NCBI GenBank assembly: GCA_020719775.1
Contig: DYPS01000003.1
Span: 1-32,836 of the forward strand
Length of the DNA: 32,836 nt
Source: Desulfosporosinus sp.
Lineage (GTDB): Bacteria; Campylobacterota; Campylobacteria; Campylobacterales; Arcobacteraceae
Direction of reading: 5' to 3'
Each line of letters begins with the position of its first letter. Position 1 is the stretch's first letter. The notes beneath the pieces were generated by a model. It did no database searches. It saw only the letters and a program-made list of their open reading frames with translations, and had not been told where the DNA came from. Positions 9,052 to 26,552 of the stretch are shown in pieces. The position numbers were made by a program, and so were the translations under genes.

Positions 9052-9117
9052 AACTTTATAATGAAAAAAGTTACTATAAAAATATTTCAATAAAAATTAG
9101 ATTTATCAACACTAGAA

Positions 9118-9152
9118 TTTTTAATAAGCTAACTAATATTGCTTATTAAAAA
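9118..9152. repeat. perfect 12-bp inverted repeat downstream of murC
   Basis: TTTTTAATAAGC at 9118-9129 pairs with GCTTATTAAAAA at 9141-9152 around an 11-base loop. Neither strand has a T-run after the 3' arm, so it is not a standard intrinsic terminator. It lies between the convergent murC and heme d1 operons and borders the candidate small RNA, whose U-rich 3' end overlaps one arm. Confidence 0.6.
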
Positions 9153-9243
9153 ATAAATACTTAAAAATTGAAATAACTCTTTATTTTAGGAGGAGGAGTT
9201 TTAGTGAAGTTTTTAAATTATTCGTGACTTTCAATTTTTAATT
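9150..9243 (-). ncRNA. candidate small RNA with an anti-Shine-Dalgarno C-rich loop
   Basis: The predicted transcript starts at 9243, 7 bases after a TAGAAT -10 (9250-9255) that is preceded by an FNR-type box at 9278-9291. Its ends form a perfect 13-bp A/U stem (TTAAAAATTGAAA at 9161-9173 against TTTCAATTTTTAA at 9229-9241). The enclosed region carries CTCCTCCTCC (minus strand, about 9190-9199), presented by a smaller AACUC/GAGUU stem (9196-9200 with 9175-9179). The tract is complementary to AGGAGG-type ribosome binding sites. A U-rich run (minus strand 9158-9148) follows the outer stem. No protein-coding frame explains the region. This is entirely sequence inference; the 3' end is uncertain, and the outer stem has no GC pairs at its base, which makes it a weak terminator. 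Confidence 0.4.
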
Positions 9244-9291
9244 ACTAGAATTCTATCCTATTACCATAAAAATATCTTTGACTTCCATCAA
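9243..9291 (-). promoter_or_regulatory. FNR-type box and -10 hexamer for the candidate small RNA
   Basis: Read on the minus strand, TTGAT-GGAA-GTCAA (9291-9278) is followed after 22 bases by TAGAAT (9255-9250), predicting a start at A 9243. The box is then centred at -41.5, the same geometry as the nirC, trpD2 and nor-nir promoters in this window. It matches the TTGAC-N4-GTCAA palindrome at 9 of 10 positions. It lies just beyond the 3' end of the heme d1 operon, so it cannot serve that operon. Confidence 0.45.
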
Positions 9292-9322
9292 GTTTGATTT
9301 TATTCTATAAAACATCTTCCAT

Positions 9323-14900: not shown

Positions 14901-14949
14901 TTGAAAAATTTTATCATAATATAAGAATATTTAAATTGACTTTGGTCAA
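14901..14949 (-). promoter_or_regulatory. FNR-type operator and promoter of the nirC heme d1 operon
   Basis: The palindrome TTGAC-TTTG-GTCAA at 14936-14949 is followed on the minus strand after exactly 22 bases by TAAAAT (14913-14908), predicting a start at A 14901. The box is centred at 14942.5, that is -41.5, the class II activator position. The same box serves the divergent trpD2 promoter, so one dimer site could activate both directions. Confidence 0.75.
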
Positions 14950-14984
14950 ACACAACACAGTAACCCTTAGTTATAATACATAAT
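14936..14984 (+). promoter_or_regulatory. FNR-type operator and promoter of the trpD2-like gene
   Basis: The shared palindrome TTGAC-TTTG-GTCAA (14936-14949) is followed on the plus strand after 22 bases by a perfect TATAAT (14972-14977). The predicted start is 14984, which also puts the box centre at -41.5. The leader to ATG 15009 would be 25 bases. Confidence 0.75.
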
Positions 14985-19791: not shown

Positions 19792-21420
19792 TTAAGCACC
19801 AGGAATAGTTTGTCTGTGCTCAACAGAATAAGTAAATGTAGGAGTTGTAAGTCCTTCAATATATTTTACAAATTCACCAGTATGAGAATCATAGATACCT
19901 ATTCTTCCAGCATTCCATTCACTTATCATTGTCCATTGACCATGATTTGCAGGTTCTGCGTGAAGAATTCTAGGAACTACAGCTTTACCATCTTTATCTT
20001 TTACAGTTGGAACTTTCCAAGTTTTAAGAACTTTTTTAGTTTTACCATCTATAAGTTGCCCTTCAGTAGTACCAACTTTGATAATTCTAGCAGTTTCAAG
20101 ATGTTGTTTGTCTATTAAATGTACTTCATTCCAAACAGCAGGGCTTCCAAGAACATTATCTGCCCAAATATATGGTGTATGCTCACTTGTTCCAACGAAC
20201 AATGCTCCACCACCTGTTGGGATGTGTCTTACGATATCCCAGTTGTTATCCCAAATAGAAACACTTCCAACATTCATATTTACAGTTGCATGAAGTTGTC
20301 CATATTTTTCATTTAACCAGCTTGAACCTTGACCTGGATGTGGTTTACTTCCAGCACCTGTATAAACTTTAGATACAAGTGATTTTGTTTTAAAGTCAAC
20401 AATACCAACAACATCACTTCCTTGAGAAGCGATCATATAGTATCTTCCCATCTCTTTACCTTCATTCAAGAATGCATCATGAAGAATTTTTCCAATTCCT
20501 GGGATATCCCCAACGATAGGGAAATCTGGTTTTGAATAATCGATGATATAAACATGTCCAGCATCTTTAAGTGCCATAGCAAAATAAGGACCGTATGGAG
20601 TATCTGCAATTGAAGCTACCCTACTTTCACCAATATTTCCATCCATATCAATAACACTTGATGTTGGATACACTTTTAAAGGCTCAAGAGTCATAGCATC
20701 AAGCATAACAGCTCCACCTGGAGTATAATTTCCAGCTAATAAATATTTTCCATCTGGAGAAACACCAAGTCCACGAGACTCACTTCCAACTCTAACTTCA
20801 GCAATTTTTTGTTGACCTGGAGTATTTAAGTCATACATTGTTACAAGTCCATCTCTTGAGATAGAATAAGCATATCGTGGCATTCTTTTATTTGTAACAG
20901 TTACATGCACAGCGAAACCAGCTGGATGTCTTGATAAAATTTTCCCAGTTGTTCCATCAATAAAAGTTACTTTTGAAGCATCTCTTTCAGTTACAAATAC
21001 GATATCCATTACATTTTTAACATCTTTAGGATCTGGATATTTTTTTGCTAAATCAGCAGCTTTATTGAATGTTCTCCATTTTGATTTTACATTTGGTAAA
21101 GTTAGAACATCTATCTTTTTCCCAGCAAATTTTTGAAGATAATCAACCATTTGTGACGCTTCTTGTTTAGACAGAGAACCTTTAAATGGAGGCATTGCAG
21201 TTCCAGATCTTCCTTCCATAATTACATCTGCTAAAAACATTGAAGTTTTATCTTTAAGTTTTTCTGGTCTAATATCACTACCAACACCACCTTGATGCAT
21301 AGGACCATGACAGCCTTGACACTCTAATTCGTATACTTTTTCAGCATCAAAACCAGCACCAGATAAGCTCATACTACCTAAAACTACAACTGAAGCAACT
21401 GCACTTAAAAACTTTTTCAT
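19792..21420 (-). CDS. nirS: cytochrome cd1 nitrite reductase (NO-forming)
   Basis: Reduces nitrite to nitric oxide in the periplasm using heme c and heme d1. A signal peptide (about residues 1-22) is followed by a cytochrome c domain with CQGCH (C34, C37, H38) and the Met-containing SGTAMPPFKG. From about residue 115 the eight-bladed d1 propeller begins (FVTERDASKVTFIDGTTGK, FAVHVTV, RDGLVTMYDL). KPHPGQG, LHATVNMNVGSVSIWD and HTPYIWAD carry candidate active-site histidines, and the end is the usual VYN-like TYSVEH segment. Length 542 is typical. The ribosome binding site is AAAGGAATTAGG just before the ATG. It is the last gene before the terminator of an operon that begins with the NO reductase genes. 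Confidence 0.97.
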   Translation of the reverse strand: MKKFLSAVASVVVLGSMSLSGAGFDAEKVYELECQGCHGPMHQGGVGSDIRPEKLKDKTSMFLADVIMEGRSGTAMPPFKGSLSKQEASQMVDYLQKFAGKKIDVLTLPNVKSKWRTFNKAADLAKKYPDPKDVKNVMDIVFVTERDASKVTFIDGTTGKILSRHPAGFAVHVTVTNKRMPRYAYSISRDGLVTMYDLNTPGQQKIAEVRVGSESRGLGVSPDGKYLLAGNYTPGGAVMLDAMTLEPLKVYPTSSVIDMDGNIGESRVASIADTPYGPYFAMALKDAGHVYIIDYSKPDFPIVGDIPGIGKILHDAFLNEGKEMGRYYMIASQGSDVVGIVDFKTKSLVSKVYTGAGSKPHPGQGSSWLNEKYGQLHATVNMNVGSVSIWDNNWDIVRHIPTGGGALFVGTSEHTPYIWADNVLGSPAVWNEVHLIDKQHLETARIIKVGTTEGQLIDGKTKKVLKTWKVPTVKDKDGKAVVPRILHAEPANHGQWTMISEWNAGRIGIYDSHTGEFVKYIEGLTTPTFTYSVEHRQTIPGA

Positions 21421-21642: not shown

Positions 21643-23061
21643 TTATCTTGTGTGAATTTTAGATTTACCAATAGTTAGTAAATCTAAAATCAAATAAACA
21701 AATCCAATAAATGTCACAACACCCATAGCAAGCCTCCAAGCCATACCTTGTAGGAACCAAAGAGCATCTTGAGATACAAAGTATCCTTCCCATGTAGCTC
21801 CCATTTGAGCTCTCTCAACTAAAACTTGTCCGTATCCTGCGATAGTTAAAGATATTGTCATACCCATAACACCAAAAGTAATTAAACCTAGTGCCATTTT
21901 TGATGCAAAAGTAGATCTCATAGCTTTAATACCATTTGTCCCTTGAACACCTAAATAAAACATACCAATTAAAATAGTTGCATATGCTCCAAAGAATGCC
22001 AAGTGTCCGTGTGCTGAAGTAAATTGTGTACCGTGAGTATAAATATTTACTTGTGGTAATGTGTGGAAGAATCCCCAAATACCAGCACCCAAAAAGTTAC
22101 CAAAAGCATTTGTAACAAACCAAGCAAATGCTGGAGAGTTATTTTGTGTAGCTTCTTGTCCTTCTGCATGTTTCGCTCCTGTTTCTTTTCCCCAGTCATA
22201 AACAACATGGACAAACATAGCTACAAGAGGAACAGGCTCAAGTGCACTAAATAATGCCCCGATTTCCCACCAGTATTCAGGTGTTCCGATCCAGAAGTAA
22301 TGGTGTCCAAGACCTAAGATTCCAGAACCAAATAGCATAGCAACTTCAATCCATAACCACATCTCAACTACTTCTCTTCTTGCACCTATCATTTTGATAA
22401 GACCCCAAGCAGCAAGTGCACCAACGAAAACTTCCCAAGTAGCTTCAACCCATAAGTGGATTACCCACCACCACCAAAATTGGTCAACTGAGACATTATC
22501 TGTAAAGAACATACCTGCAAGATAAAGTCCAGCAAGGGCCATCAAGTCTGCCATAATAACAGTCATAATTCCTGTTCTTTCCCCTTTAATTGCTGTTGCG
22601 AACGTATTGTAAACGAAAATAAGAACAACAACAGTAATACCAAGATCGGCCCATCTTGGAGCTTCAAGATATTCCCTTCCTTCATTAATTAACCAAATAG
22701 TACTTTCACTTGCCGGTCCAACTTGCACTAAAATATATACCAAAACAACAACTGTAACAGCAGCTGTTAGCACATAAAATCCTAATTTTCCAAGTTTTAT
22801 CCCAACTGTTTCAATACCAGTTTCATCAGGTAACAAAAAGTACACAGACCCAATCATTGCATACAGCATCCATACTACAAGAGCATTGATATGTACCATT
22901 CTTGCAACACTAAAATCAAACAATTCAAACAAAAAGCTAGGATATATGAATTGAACTGCTGCAATAAGCCCCATCAAAAGTTGAGCCCCAAAAAGTACAG
23001 CTGCAACTGTAAAATACATAATTCCTAATTTTTGTGATTCGTATTTAAGATTACTTGCCAT
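21643..23061 (-). CDS. norB: nitric oxide reductase large subunit NorB
   Basis: A heme-copper oxidase-family membrane protein that reduces NO to N2O at a heme b3/non-heme iron centre. The 472-residue product is almost entirely hydrophobic, with about 12 helices. It shows RMVHINALVVWML, WWWWVIHLWVEATWEVF with the Glu and His residues of the binuclear site, LGIGHHY-type LGLGHHYFWIG and TSAHGHLAFFGAYA. I choose ATG 23061 because AAGGAG lies 6 bases upstream; this overlaps the end of norC by 11 bp. A frame start at 23112 would overlap more and has no site. The partner norC shows it is the cytochrome c-dependent type, not the quinol-oxidising qNor. Confidence 0.96.
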   Translation of the reverse strand: MASNLKYESQKLGIMYFTVAAVLFGAQLLMGLIAAVQFIYPSFLFELFDFSVARMVHINALVVWMLYAMIGSVYFLLPDETGIETVGIKLGKLGFYVLTAAVTVVVLVYILVQVGPASESTIWLINEGREYLEAPRWADLGITVVVLIFVYNTFATAIKGERTGIMTVIMADLMALAGLYLAGMFFTDNVSVDQFWWWWVIHLWVEATWEVFVGALAAWGLIKMIGARREVVEMWLWIEVAMLFGSGILGLGHHYFWIGTPEYWWEIGALFSALEPVPLVAMFVHVVYDWGKETGAKHAEGQEATQNNSPAFAWFVTNAFGNFLGAGIWGFFHTLPQVNIYTHGTQFTSAHGHLAFFGAYATILIGMFYLGVQGTNGIKAMRSTFASKMALGLITFGVMGMTISLTIAGYGQVLVERAQMGATWEGYFVSQDALWFLQGMAWRLAMGVVTFIGFVYLILDLLTIGKSKIHTR

Positions 23062-23707
23062 GTATTGCTCCTTGCATTCTTCCAAAGTTTCTAGGGAAAC
23101 CATTTGTATCAATTGAAGACATATGTTTTAAAAATGCCACAAGTCCTTTTGCTTCTTCCGCTGTAATACCAAGATCTGGCATCATTCTTTCATGTGTAGG
23201 ATATTTTGATGGATTCATTAAAAATTCTGCCATCGCTTCTTCTTTGGTTTGTTTTCCTGTTAAAGCCATCATAGAACCTTCTGGTCCCCAAGCTGGATCA
23301 AGCCAGGCTTTAGTTAAGTCTGGTGCATAATACGCTCCATTTCCAAGTATCGTATGACAATTCATACAGTTTTTAGCTTGACTTCCTAATTTTCCCAAGT
23401 GTAATAAATCAGCAGCTTCTTGCTCACTATAATCATCTCTACCAAAGAATTTTTCTTTTTCACCAATTACTGGCACCTCATGTCCTCTTTTATCACTCAT
23501 CTCGTAAGTGATTTTATAATTAATAACCGTAGGAGCTGGAACTCTTTTTGTTACTTTATTTTGCAAGTCACTCTCCGTTCCCATTGCAATTTGACTTGAC
23601 GTATCAAACGTAAGCCAAATCAACAAAATTGACGAAAACCCAGTTACCCAAGCAGCTGATCTTGCCCAAAATCGATTGTCTGTCCATACGGAAACTTGCT
23701 TAGACAT
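23051..23707 (-). CDS. norC: nitric oxide reductase cytochrome c subunit NorC
   Basis: Passes electrons from periplasmic cytochromes to NorB. One N-terminal transmembrane helix (about residues 17-36, AAWVTGFSSILLIWLTF) anchors a periplasmic domain with heme site CMNCH and the Met-containing HERMMPDLGI. The family core ends FLKHMSSIDTNGFPRNF. At 218 residues it is longer than the roughly 150-residue proteobacterial NorC; the extra part is a region before the heme motif (about residues 40-105). ATG 23707 is preceded by AAGGAG; earlier in-frame ATGs up to 23746 overlap the upstream gene and are less likely. Confidence 0.95.
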   Translation of the reverse strand: MSKQVSVWTDNRFWARSAAWVTGFSSILLIWLTFDTSSQIAMGTESDLQNKVTKRVPAPTVINYKITYEMSDKRGHEVPVIGEKEKFFGRDDYSEQEAADLLHLGKLGSQAKNCMNCHTILGNGAYYAPDLTKAWLDPAWGPEGSMMALTGKQTKEEAMAEFLMNPSKYPTHERMMPDLGITAEEAKGLVAFLKHMSSIDTNGFPRNFGRMQGAIHGK

Positions 23708-24077: not shown

Positions 24078-24126
24078 AATTGCTATTATAAAGAAATAAT
24101 TAAGATATTTACTTGACCATGGTCAA
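24078..24126 (-). promoter_or_regulatory. FNR-type operator and promoter of the norCB-nirS operon
   Basis: The perfect palindrome CTTGAC-CATG-GTCAAG contains TTGAC-N4-GTCAA at 24113-24126. On the minus strand it is followed after 22 bases by a perfect TATAAT (24090-24085), predicting a start near 24078 and a box centre at -41.5. It begins 15 bp after the end of the 66-residue protein gene, separating the regulator unit from its likely target operon. Confidence 0.8.
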
Positions 24127-24140
24127 GTAAATTAAATATT

Positions 24141-24341
24141 TTAAAAATATAAAAATGAAGCCAGAAGAGTTGCTATAAATAGCGTAAAAAAGCCTATACA
24201 TAGGTTGGTTTTGGAAGATGTTAAATTATATTTTACTTGGCATTTTGAACCAAGCCAAATTGCAGGAGAGAGAGAAAACACTATTAAGACAAAAATAAAA
24301 ACTAAAAAAATTACTATATTTGTTATTGAATCTAATTGCAT
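24141..24341 (-). CDS. small two-helix membrane protein downstream of the FNR-family regulator
   Basis: Sixty-six residues with two hydrophobic helices (about 8-30 and 46-65) joined by a polar loop containing two cysteines (SKCQVKYN, TNLCIGF). I do not recognise a family. It overlaps the 3' end of the regulator gene by 10 bp, so it is translated from the same mRNA, and it ends just before the nor-nir operator. A role in sensing or respiration is not shown by the sequence. Confidence 0.6.
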   Translation of the reverse strand: MQLDSITNIVIFLVFIFVLIVFSLSPAIWLGSKCQVKYNLTSSKTNLCIGFFTLFIATLLASFLYF

Positions 24342-24970
24342 AATATTTTAAGTCCATTCAAATCTTTGATAACTATTGGATTTGTTGATTCTAAGAAAGT
24401 ATTCTGTTTAAATTTTTTTAAAATTCTAGAGATAGTTTCAGCAGTTGTATTAAGTTCAAAAGCAATATTTTTATGTTTCATAGTACTAATAGTTTGTGCA
24501 TTATTTATTATAAATTTTGCAAGTTTAAAATCTATGCCAAGCGAGGTTTCTCGTTCAAATGAATTCATAAGATACTTCACCTTCATACTGAGAGATTTAA
24601 TAATTGCTTGTAATAAAACGACATCACTAAAAAAATATTTCATAAATTTCTTTCTATCTATAACTAAAACTTCACACCCTTCTAGAGCCTCAGTTGTAGC
24701 TGGATAATTCATTTGTTCAAACATAGTGACTTCAGCGATAATTACCCCTGGAGACATAGTGTGAATATAAACTTGCTTCAAGCTTCCTTGGTTTTTTAAA
24801 ATTTTAAGATAGCCTTTTCTTAGATAATAAATATAATCCGGCTTGTCTCCTTCATAAAATAAAATTTCACCTGCTGAAAGATTCTTTATGGTACAAATTT
24901 TACTTAATTCTTCTAGTTTTAAATCATCAAAAGATGCAAAATATCGTATCTCTCTTAATATTTCTTTCAT
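24332..24970 (-). CDS. FNR/CRP-family transcription regulator, probable NO-responsive activator of the locus
   Basis: A 212-residue regulator. Residues about 10-115 are a cyclic-nucleotide-binding-like beta barrel (GEILFYEGDKPDYIYYLRKGYLKI); then comes the dimer helix and a C-terminal winged helix. The recognition helix reads TAETISRILKKFK, with E178, S181 and R182 as in FNR (ETISR), which reads a TTGA half-site. That matches the TTGAC-N4-GTCAA boxes found here. Only three cysteines occur (about 26, 99, 211) and there is no FNR-type N-terminal cluster, so a 4Fe-4S oxygen sensor is unlikely. Dnr/NnrR-like NO sensing, or similarity to Campylobacter NssR, is the best inference. AAGGG precedes the ATG. 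Confidence 0.88.
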   Translation of the reverse strand: MKEILREIRYFASFDDLKLEELSKICTIKNLSAGEILFYEGDKPDYIYYLRKGYLKILKNQGSLKQVYIHTMSPGVIIAEVTMFEQMNYPATTEALEGCEVLVIDRKKFMKYFFSDVVLLQAIIKSLSMKVKYLMNSFERETSLGIDFKLAKFIINNAQTISTMKHKNIAFELNTTAETISRILKKFKQNTFLESTNPIVIKDLNGLKILCN

Positions 24971-25138: not shown

Positions 25139-25169
25139 ATAATTTTAATTATTATAGGGGGAGTATAAA

Positions 25170-26552
25170 ATGAAAGAAAAAGTTAAAGAAACATCATATC
25201 GTATAAAAAGATATTGGGCTTATCTTATTGCGACTATTATATCTGTGGGTTTACCATTTATCCAAATTGGTGGAAATCAAATATTTTTGTTATCGTTTGA
25301 TAAAAAACAACTTCATTTAATGGGTACAGTATTTGATATGCAAGAACTTTATCTTATGCCTTTTTTATTAATGTTGCTGTTTTTGGGTATTTTTGCTGTT
25401 ACTGCCATTGGAGGACGCGCATGGTGTGGATGGGCATGTCCTCAGACAATTTTCAGGGTTGTTTATAGAGATTTTATTGAATCAACACTGTTAGGAATGA
25501 GAAGAATTAAGAATAAGCAAAAAGATCCTGATTATACTAAGTCAGGGATGAAAGTAAAAAAAGCAATAGCGATTATCATTTGGTCTGTTATAGCTCTATT
25601 GGCTGCTGCAGACTTTATATGGTTTTTTATCCCTCCTGCGGACTTTTTTGCATATTTAGCAGATCCTGCTGAACATACTACAATGATTGGATTTGTTTTA
25701 GGTATCGCTGCATTTTTAGTGTATGATGTTGTATTTTTACAAGAAAACTTCTGTGTTTATGTATGCCCTTATTCAAGAGTTCAATCTGTGCTTTATGATG
25801 ATGATACAGTTCAAGCCATTTATAATCCGCATAGAGGTGGTGAGATTTATGATACTCAAAAGCAAAAAATTGTTTTTAAAGCTAAAGATTTAGCAAATCC
25901 AACTGATGAATGTACGGCTTGTGAGAGTTGTGTAACTGTTTGTCCTACACATATTGATATTAGAAAAGGTACTCAGCTAGAATGTATCAATTGCCTAGAG
26001 TGTGTTGATGCCTGTACTACAGTTATGGGGAAACTCGGGAAAGAGAGTCTTGTGCAATGGTCGAGCACTAATGATGTTATTAACAATAAAGGGTTGAACC
26101 TCATCAGAGGGAAAAGTATTAGCTATGCGATTGCTCTTTTAGTAATTATTGGGATGTTATTTGTTATGGGTGGAAAAAAAGAATATATGCTTTTAAATAT
26201 AAACAAAACAACTCAATTATATAAAATTAATGAAGGAAATGAAGTTACAAATAGTTTTTTATTATTATTTCAAAACACCCAAAAAGAGAGTTATACTTAT
26301 AACTTAGAGGTAATTGGTGCCTACAAAGGAAAAATTGAAATTCAACGATTTGAACCATTCAAATTAAGTAAAGGGAAATTAGCCAAAAAAGTTATTAAAC
26401 TTTCAACAAAAGAATTATTAGTTGATAATATGAGAAAAGATACTCCTATTACAATTACTTTAAAAGCTTATGCTATTGAAAATCCAACAAAAGTGATGGT
26501 AACAAGAGAAGCTGTATTTATTTTTCCAAGAAGTGATAAATTAAAGAAATAA
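25170..26552 (+). CDS. ccoG: cytochrome c oxidase accessory protein CcoG (FixG/RdxA type)
   Basis: A membrane ferredoxin-like protein implicated in copper delivery to and assembly of cbb3 oxidase. The 460 residues include a helix at 16-35, the CxxxCP pair GGRAWCGWACP (81-91), further helices, FCVYVCPYSR (194-203) and a dicluster ferredoxin domain with C248, C251, C254, C258 and C272, C275, C278, C282. The C-terminal part after a last helix (about 316-332) is a periplasmic immunoglobulin-like domain. A GGGGG-type site precedes the ATG. It is transcribed away from the FNR-family regulator; cbb3 structural genes are not in the window. It could also serve heme-copper NorB, which is speculation. 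Confidence 0.93.
   Translation: MKEKVKETSYRIKRYWAYLIATIISVGLPFIQIGGNQIFLLSFDKKQLHLMGTVFDMQELYLMPFLLMLLFLGIFAVTAIGGRAWCGWACPQTIFRVVYRDFIESTLLGMRRIKNKQKDPDYTKSGMKVKKAIAIIIWSVIALLAAADFIWFFIPPADFFAYLADPAEHTTMIGFVLGIAAFLVYDVVFLQENFCVYVCPYSRVQSVLYDDDTVQAIYNPHRGGEIYDTQKQKIVFKAKDLANPTDECTACESCVTVCPTHIDIRKGTQLECINCLECVDACTTVMGKLGKESLVQWSSTNDVINNKGLNLIRGKSISYAIALLVIIGMLFVMGGKKEYMLLNINKTTQLYKINEGNEVTNSFLLLFQNTQKESYTYNLEVIGAYKGKIEIQRFEPFKLSKGKLAKKVIKLSTKELLVDNMRKDTPITITLKAYAIENPTKVMVTREAVFIFPRSDKLKK

Follow-up and report, generated by a model that had tools for sequence, protein, structure and literature searches.

In Neisseria, the small RNAs AniS (meningococcus) and FnrS (gonococcus) are FNR-dependent, and Helicobacter pylori, the host of the small RNA RepG, belongs to the same phylum as the organism analyzed here. 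FnrS of Escherichia coli is activated by FNR in low oxygen and represses genes that are dispensable without oxygen (review PMC8139620). AniS and gonococcal FnrS are described as being made under oxygen limitation, and the sibling RNAs NmsRA and NmsRB of Neisseria meningitidis as repressing translation through UC-rich single-stranded anti-Shine-Dalgarno regions (PMC5362039). RepG pairs through the C/U-rich loop of its terminator hairpin with a G-rich mRNA leader (PMC8295292). FNR-linked small RNAs are named in these sources for E. coli, Neisseria and others, and RNAs with anti-Shine-Dalgarno or C/U-rich loops for Neisseria and Helicobacter (PMC8139620, PMC5362039, PMC8295292). In the open-access literature on this phylum no FNR-controlled small RNA was found, and a scan of the window (the whole stretch of 32,836 nucleotides that was analyzed) and of ten loci with homologues against Rfam 15 gave no match above the gathering threshold. 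The locus described below points to a new small-RNA family of a known kind, the FNR-family-activated base-pairing RNAs.

Direct reading of the sequence placed murC on one side of a 271-bp gap (9052-9322) and, on the other, a minus-strand operon for heme d1 synthesis that codes for siroheme decarboxylase NirDL, NirF-like and NirJ-like proteins. For this gap the initial annotation had proposed a small RNA under FNR-type control whose loop is complementary to Shine-Dalgarno sequences. Its box, its TAGAAT -10 hexamer, its predicted start at A 9243 of the minus strand and the 22-nt spacing between box and -10 were all correctly located, and folding reproduced the perfect 13-bp stem around CTCCTCCTCC (Table 1). 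With 22 nt between box and -10, the centre of the box falls near -41.5, as in class II activation. Identical spacing was found in the window at 14936, in both directions, and at 24113 on the minus strand. A palindromic FNR box (TTGACTTTGGTCAA, window 14908-14977) serves both directions, the -10 being exactly 22 nt away on each side, and is flanked by genes for a cytochrome c (minus strand) and a trpD-like protein (plus strand). In the window the predicted RNA is followed by nothing but the 3' end of murC, in antisense and about 190 nt from the predicted start site. Behind the RNA there is also an inverted repeat, TTTTTAATAAGC/GCTTATTAAAAA, of 12 perfectly matched bp and an 11-nt loop (window 9118-9152); it was rejected as a terminator for its wrong polarity and for the lack of a U-run on its 3' side, on both strands.

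Table 1. Coordinates of the predicted small RNA, its promoter, its surroundings and its closest homologue (window positions unless another contig or locus is given)
Feature	Position	Strand	Basis or remark
FNR/Crp-family box TTGATGGAAGTCAA	9278..9291	-	read directly; exact TTGAYN4RTCAA match
-10 hexamer TAGAAT	9250..9255	-	22 nt past box, class II geometry
Predicted small RNA, ~85-95 nt	9158..9243; 3' end about 9158-9145	-	G001 homologue and covariance-model matches in G008, G017, G117
5' arm of end-to-end stem UUAAAAAUUGAAA	9229..9241	-	fold; compensatory changes in homologues
3' arm of end-to-end stem UUUCAAUUUUUAA	9161..9173	-	fold; compensatory changes in homologues
55-nt loop, predicted largely single-stranded	9174..9228	-	fold; homologue loops of similar length
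Anti-Shine-Dalgarno element CTCCTCCTCC	9189..9198	-	within loop; identical in G001 homologue
U-rich stretch AGUAUUUAUUUUUU, putative weak terminator	9145..9160	-	read directly; 3' of stem
murC	ends 9051	+	convergent with predicted RNA
Last gene of heme d1 operon	ends 9323	-	
Cytochrome d1 protein gene (Nir)	19792-21420		in window
NorB-like gene	21643-23112		in window
Crp/Fnr regulator gene	24332-24970		in window
G001 homologue	L099:1117-1210; promoter contig 55, position 3358	+	longest 5'-terminal stem, rank 1/71

The promoter was analyzed as the pattern TTGAYN4RTCAA-N22-TANNNT, with the same pattern reversed as a control. The source genome contained 12 matches versus one for the control, and the eight genomes of the genus 74 versus nine. 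Nearly all of the 74 genus sites were retrieved for inspection of the sequence downstream, and almost all have a start codon between about +0 and +90. From sequence features we take the genes behind them to be those of Nap, Nor, cytochromes, denitrification, Moa, hemerythrin-like, FmdE-like and Crp/Fnr-type proteins. Because of the 74 versus nine matches, and of sites that point at respiratory genes, the window site is assigned to a genuine promoter class; it is among the very few sites of this class without a gene behind.

The two arms of the stem pair perfectly over 13 bp and close the first 83 nt of the predicted RNA. Such a 5'-terminal helix was rare in Markov shuffles (p = 0.0015) and, of the 71 promoters of class II geometry that the genus contains, only one has a longer one. 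The folding energy is ordinary (z = -0.87), since the stem consists of A/U pairs and the loop is long. The loop is C/U-rich. Termination, which had been flagged at the outset as the weak point, remains uncertain for the window copy because the stem is A/U-rich and the U-tract imperfect; the difficulty is eased in relatives, which have stems richer in G/C and/or U-rich sequence after the stem.

A plain DNA search with the whole gap against 41 relatives gave no convincing match, and the short A/T-rich matches that it returned were dismissed as chance. A homologue in G001, the sister species, surfaced only via the promoter search. It lies at a different locus from that of the window RNA, between a chemoreceptor gene and one for a membrane sensor, part of which resembles histidine kinases. 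Local alignment restricted to the two RNAs scored 72, whereas none of 5000 shuffles exceeded 46, and the CTCCTCCTCC loop element is identical in both. All 13 stem pairs are kept: two have changed on both sides, from U-A to C-G, and one has gone from A-U to G-U. RNA, box and -10 are about equally well matched (67/92, 11/14 and 4/6 identical positions, respectively), and the U-rich UUUCUUUUGUUGU that follows the G001 stem makes a better terminator than that of the window.

The syntenic site in G001 (contig 35, behind a 129-aa gene) has an FNR promoter and a different 14-bp stem-loop, the loop of which carries CCUUCUAAAAUAAC, with a Crp/Fnr gene at +166. It is possibly an autoregulated structured leader of that gene. 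At the same place (L052:4985-5199, minus strand) a second, perfect 13-bp hairpin, ahead of the Crp/Fnr gene, hides CCUCC/GGAGG. The initial annotation had also named loss from close relatives with intact flanking genes as grounds against the proposal, and in part this was observed: in G003, a member of the same genus, the 129-aa gene is followed by neither box nor RNA. The close homologue of G001 lies elsewhere. No match to the RNA was obtained in the remaining genus members, a weak form of evidence given the limited number of candidates scored per genome. The state of G003 suggests an RNA that moves or is readily lost.

A covariance model built from the window RNA and the G001 homologue (R1) matched in two further genera, upstream of a Crp/Fnr gene in G008 and between napA and an NnrS gene in G017. 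When the four members were aligned to the model, double changes affected seven of the 13 stem pairs and 98% of cells were paired, both values being biased upward by the fitting of the alignment to the structure. A second model (R2) added a member in G117. A motif search brought up one further copy each for G008 and G117 as well as a form in genus g10; this search demanded CTCC at the appropriate position, so that the presence of CTCC in the second copies and in all g10 sequences is partly built in. The third model (R3) found the g10 form in 11 genomes, all of them g10, and its two weak matches L220 and L221 were rejected as ordinary promoters with genes.

In the g10 form a small hairpin at the 5' end precedes a stem of 12-16 bp around CCCCUNAAUCUCUCCUAA; the stem mostly has one bulge or mismatch, and in several genomes a U-tract comes after it. 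Ten g10 sequences were aligned with MAFFT without regard to structure. Double changes were seen in nine of 15 pairs and 89% of cells were paired, compared to 33-42% when the partner column was slid by 1 to 3 positions as a control. Mean column identity was highest in the loop (0.89), lower in the two stem arms (0.73 and 0.79) and lowest in the promoter spacer (0.67); judged from these sequences, a stem that varies but stays paired and a loop that stays constant are what should be expected of a base-pairing regulator. A common ancestor of the g10 form and the others and a parallel origin are both possible.

Including the source genus, the family comprises four genera, with the same promoter type in all. 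The whole combination of promoter, stem and loop is met again at unrelated positions, in most cases beside FNR-regulated genes, and two copies per genome are present in G008, in G117 and probably in G001. Under a looser score that allows one defect, stem shuffles gave p <= 0.01 in 17 of 18 members and 0.015 for the window. The members show CUCC or CCUCC in the loop, with the exception of G001 contig 35, which has CCUUC alone, and between genera the loops differ outside the CUCC core. The loops at L146, L193 and L199 (G008 and G117) contain CACCUCC(C/U)UUG, which matches the 3' tail of 16S rRNA fully or nearly so; a copy in G008 and one in G117 carry CACCUCCUUU, equal to the anti-Shine-Dalgarno tail. 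The comparison with related genomes, which had been set beforehand as a test, thus found the C-rich loop conserved and stem positions covarying, and with promoter, stem and loop conserved in relatives the interpretation first put forward gains support in outline.

Searches were extended to 399 genomes of the order. R2 returned nothing beyond the bacterial family at E <= 0.05, an absence that counts as weak evidence as few candidates were scored per genome. The pattern box-22-(-10)-N30-60-CTCCTCC had, besides the window, just two matches outside the bacterial family, and these look like coincidences. Model matches in G062, G044, G063, G116, G110 and G111 were set aside, since the FNR-type promoter there leads into a short hairpin and an ordinary gene. 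At these loci (L147, L149-L153) the promoter is conserved and the short 5' hairpin, such as AAAAAGCCACTTTTTAAGTGGCTTTTT, abuts the ribosome-binding site of a gene for an NnrS-like membrane protein, which makes it a leader structure distinct from the long-loop RNAs. Another FNR-driven leader, L161 (G001 contig 41, 7612-7722, minus strand), has the 5'-terminal stem ACCAAATA/TATTTGGT, a loop without a C-rich motif and a small gene at +86; the insert is absent from its G007 counterpart.

Taken together, promoter class, homologous RNAs, conserved loop and covarying stem, all of them computed, argue for a free-standing small RNA that is activated by an FNR-family protein and most likely represses translation by base-pairing, a reading to which we assign a probability of roughly 0.77. 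Several other readings were weighed against it. The element could be a detached mRNA leader, that is, the FNR promoter and structured 5' UTR of a relocated Crp/Fnr or FmdE-like gene. This would fit the syntenic G001 site, where promoter and stem-loop precede a Crp/Fnr gene that in the window lies elsewhere, as well as the FmdE-like gene found at about +60 to +130 in g10, and a leader role is possible for the other g10 genomes and for G001 contig 35. Yet the FmdE-like gene behind the RNA in G008 and G117 has a second box-22-(-10) promoter of its own, which makes the RNA a transcription unit in its own right there; the G001 RNA closest to that of the window has no same-strand gene directly downstream on contig 55; and the window RNA runs just towards murC, in antisense. 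In G070 the RNA does not precede the FmdE-like gene, an assignment that is itself weak by Pfam (22.2 bits versus a cut-off of 22.9). Homologues at unrelated loci, a covarying stem and no conserved open reading frame characterize a predicted free-standing non-coding unit, and a detached leader appears unlikely. An effect in cis alone, by an antisense or interfering transcript into the 3' end of the convergent murC with the stem-loop incidental, would suit the direction of the transcript and its distance to that gene; it is very improbable, because homologues adjoin quite different genes and a murC-specific role cannot explain their conservation.

Read on the plus strand, AGGAGGAGGAG could be the ribosome-binding site of a short peptide (GTG AAG TTT TTA AAT TAT TCG TGA), and its spacing to GTG in the window is good. 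The G001 homologue, however, reads GTC as start and does not keep the frame, the promoter faces the other strand and it is the stem pairing that is conserved, so this reading deserves hardly any credence. Doubtful, in our view, is a real RNA whose loop binds a protein or titrates a partner other than Shine-Dalgarno sequences. Target searches that gave no convincing target and loops that differ between genera except for the CUCC core would agree with such a role, but CUCC or CCUCC, exposed in the loops of members other than that of G001 contig 35, is the classical anti-Shine-Dalgarno motif, and the window loop is devoid of the GGA motif typical of CsrA binding.

From these computed features we infer transcription, induction and repression by base-pairing of the free-standing small RNA, which may act as follows. 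In low oxygen or in the presence of NO or nitrite, a Crp/Fnr-family activator bound at 9278-9291 would recruit RNA polymerase from the class II position, and the minus strand from 9243 to about 9150 would be transcribed as a free-standing small RNA. Its 5' end would pair with its own 3' end in the 13-bp stem, so that both ends are sealed, which would confer stability, and the ~55-nt loop is left single-stranded. The loop would display CUCCUCCUCC(U)AAAAUAA, able to pair with target mRNAs at their G-rich Shine-Dalgarno regions and so to block translation.

By analogy with FnrS, genes for aerobic or microaerobic respiration are plausible candidate targets. GGAGGAG before ATG was modestly enriched in G000 (41 versus 19 in controls) and not in G001 (15 versus 13). 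The sole site seen to be common to orthologous genes in both genomes is GGGAGGAG, identical in the two, before a gene that we name ccoO (cbb3-oxidase subunit) from its sequence. As a target ccoO was not retained, since the same site occurs in G005 and G007 and a nearly identical one in G003, three genomes in which no RNA was found. Predicted duplexes with the loop reached -19.1 kcal/mol for ccoG, identified by NCBIfam, and -17.7 kcal/mol for ccoO. The suggestion that local AAGGAG sites are targets gained no specific support: the ccoG duplex, the strongest among window genes, was equalled by one in 100 shuffled loops, and neither duplex is significant after 33 tests. Both genes are thus weak target hints. 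The start region of ccoG (TATAGGGGGAGTATAAAATG, window 25140-25170) is unusual, and the gene is divergent from the Crp/Fnr gene. A rather speculative option, which we hold to be improbable, is that the family acts as a broad translational dimmer of low-oxygen growth, with loops that mimic the 16S rRNA 3' tail, have flanks tuned in each genus and rival the ribosome at the strongest Shine-Dalgarno sites, rather than acting on a few specific mRNAs.

Compared to the described systems, the predicted RNA would share with FnrS of E. coli the logic of FNR-type activation and differs from it in being one end-to-end hairpin with an anti-Shine-Dalgarno loop and without an Rfam match. AniS and FnrS of Neisseria belong to another phylum and have another architecture, and the Rfam scan indicated no relation. 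The occurrence of sibling copies, here in G008, G117 and probably G001, recalls NmsRA and NmsRB; by contrast, these have three stem-loops instead of one sealing stem, and the part of their description used here mentions no FNR control. The g10 members, with their CCCCUAAAUCUCUCC loop and, in several cases, a U-tract after the stem, come closest to RepG, a resemblance in function only; RepG targets homopolymeric G repeats, and no FNR-type promoter is described for it in the sections of the source considered.

These results indicate that promoter-anchored comparison can reveal small RNAs missed by plain DNA searches. The architecture is simple, a sealed stem of variable sequence and a constant loop directed against ribosome-binding sites, and makes the function testable by a few loop mutations. 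Judged by Rfam and the open literature, this would be the first described FNR-type-controlled small-RNA family in this denitrifying group, and, if the reading is true, it would link the control of denitrification to post-transcriptional repression.
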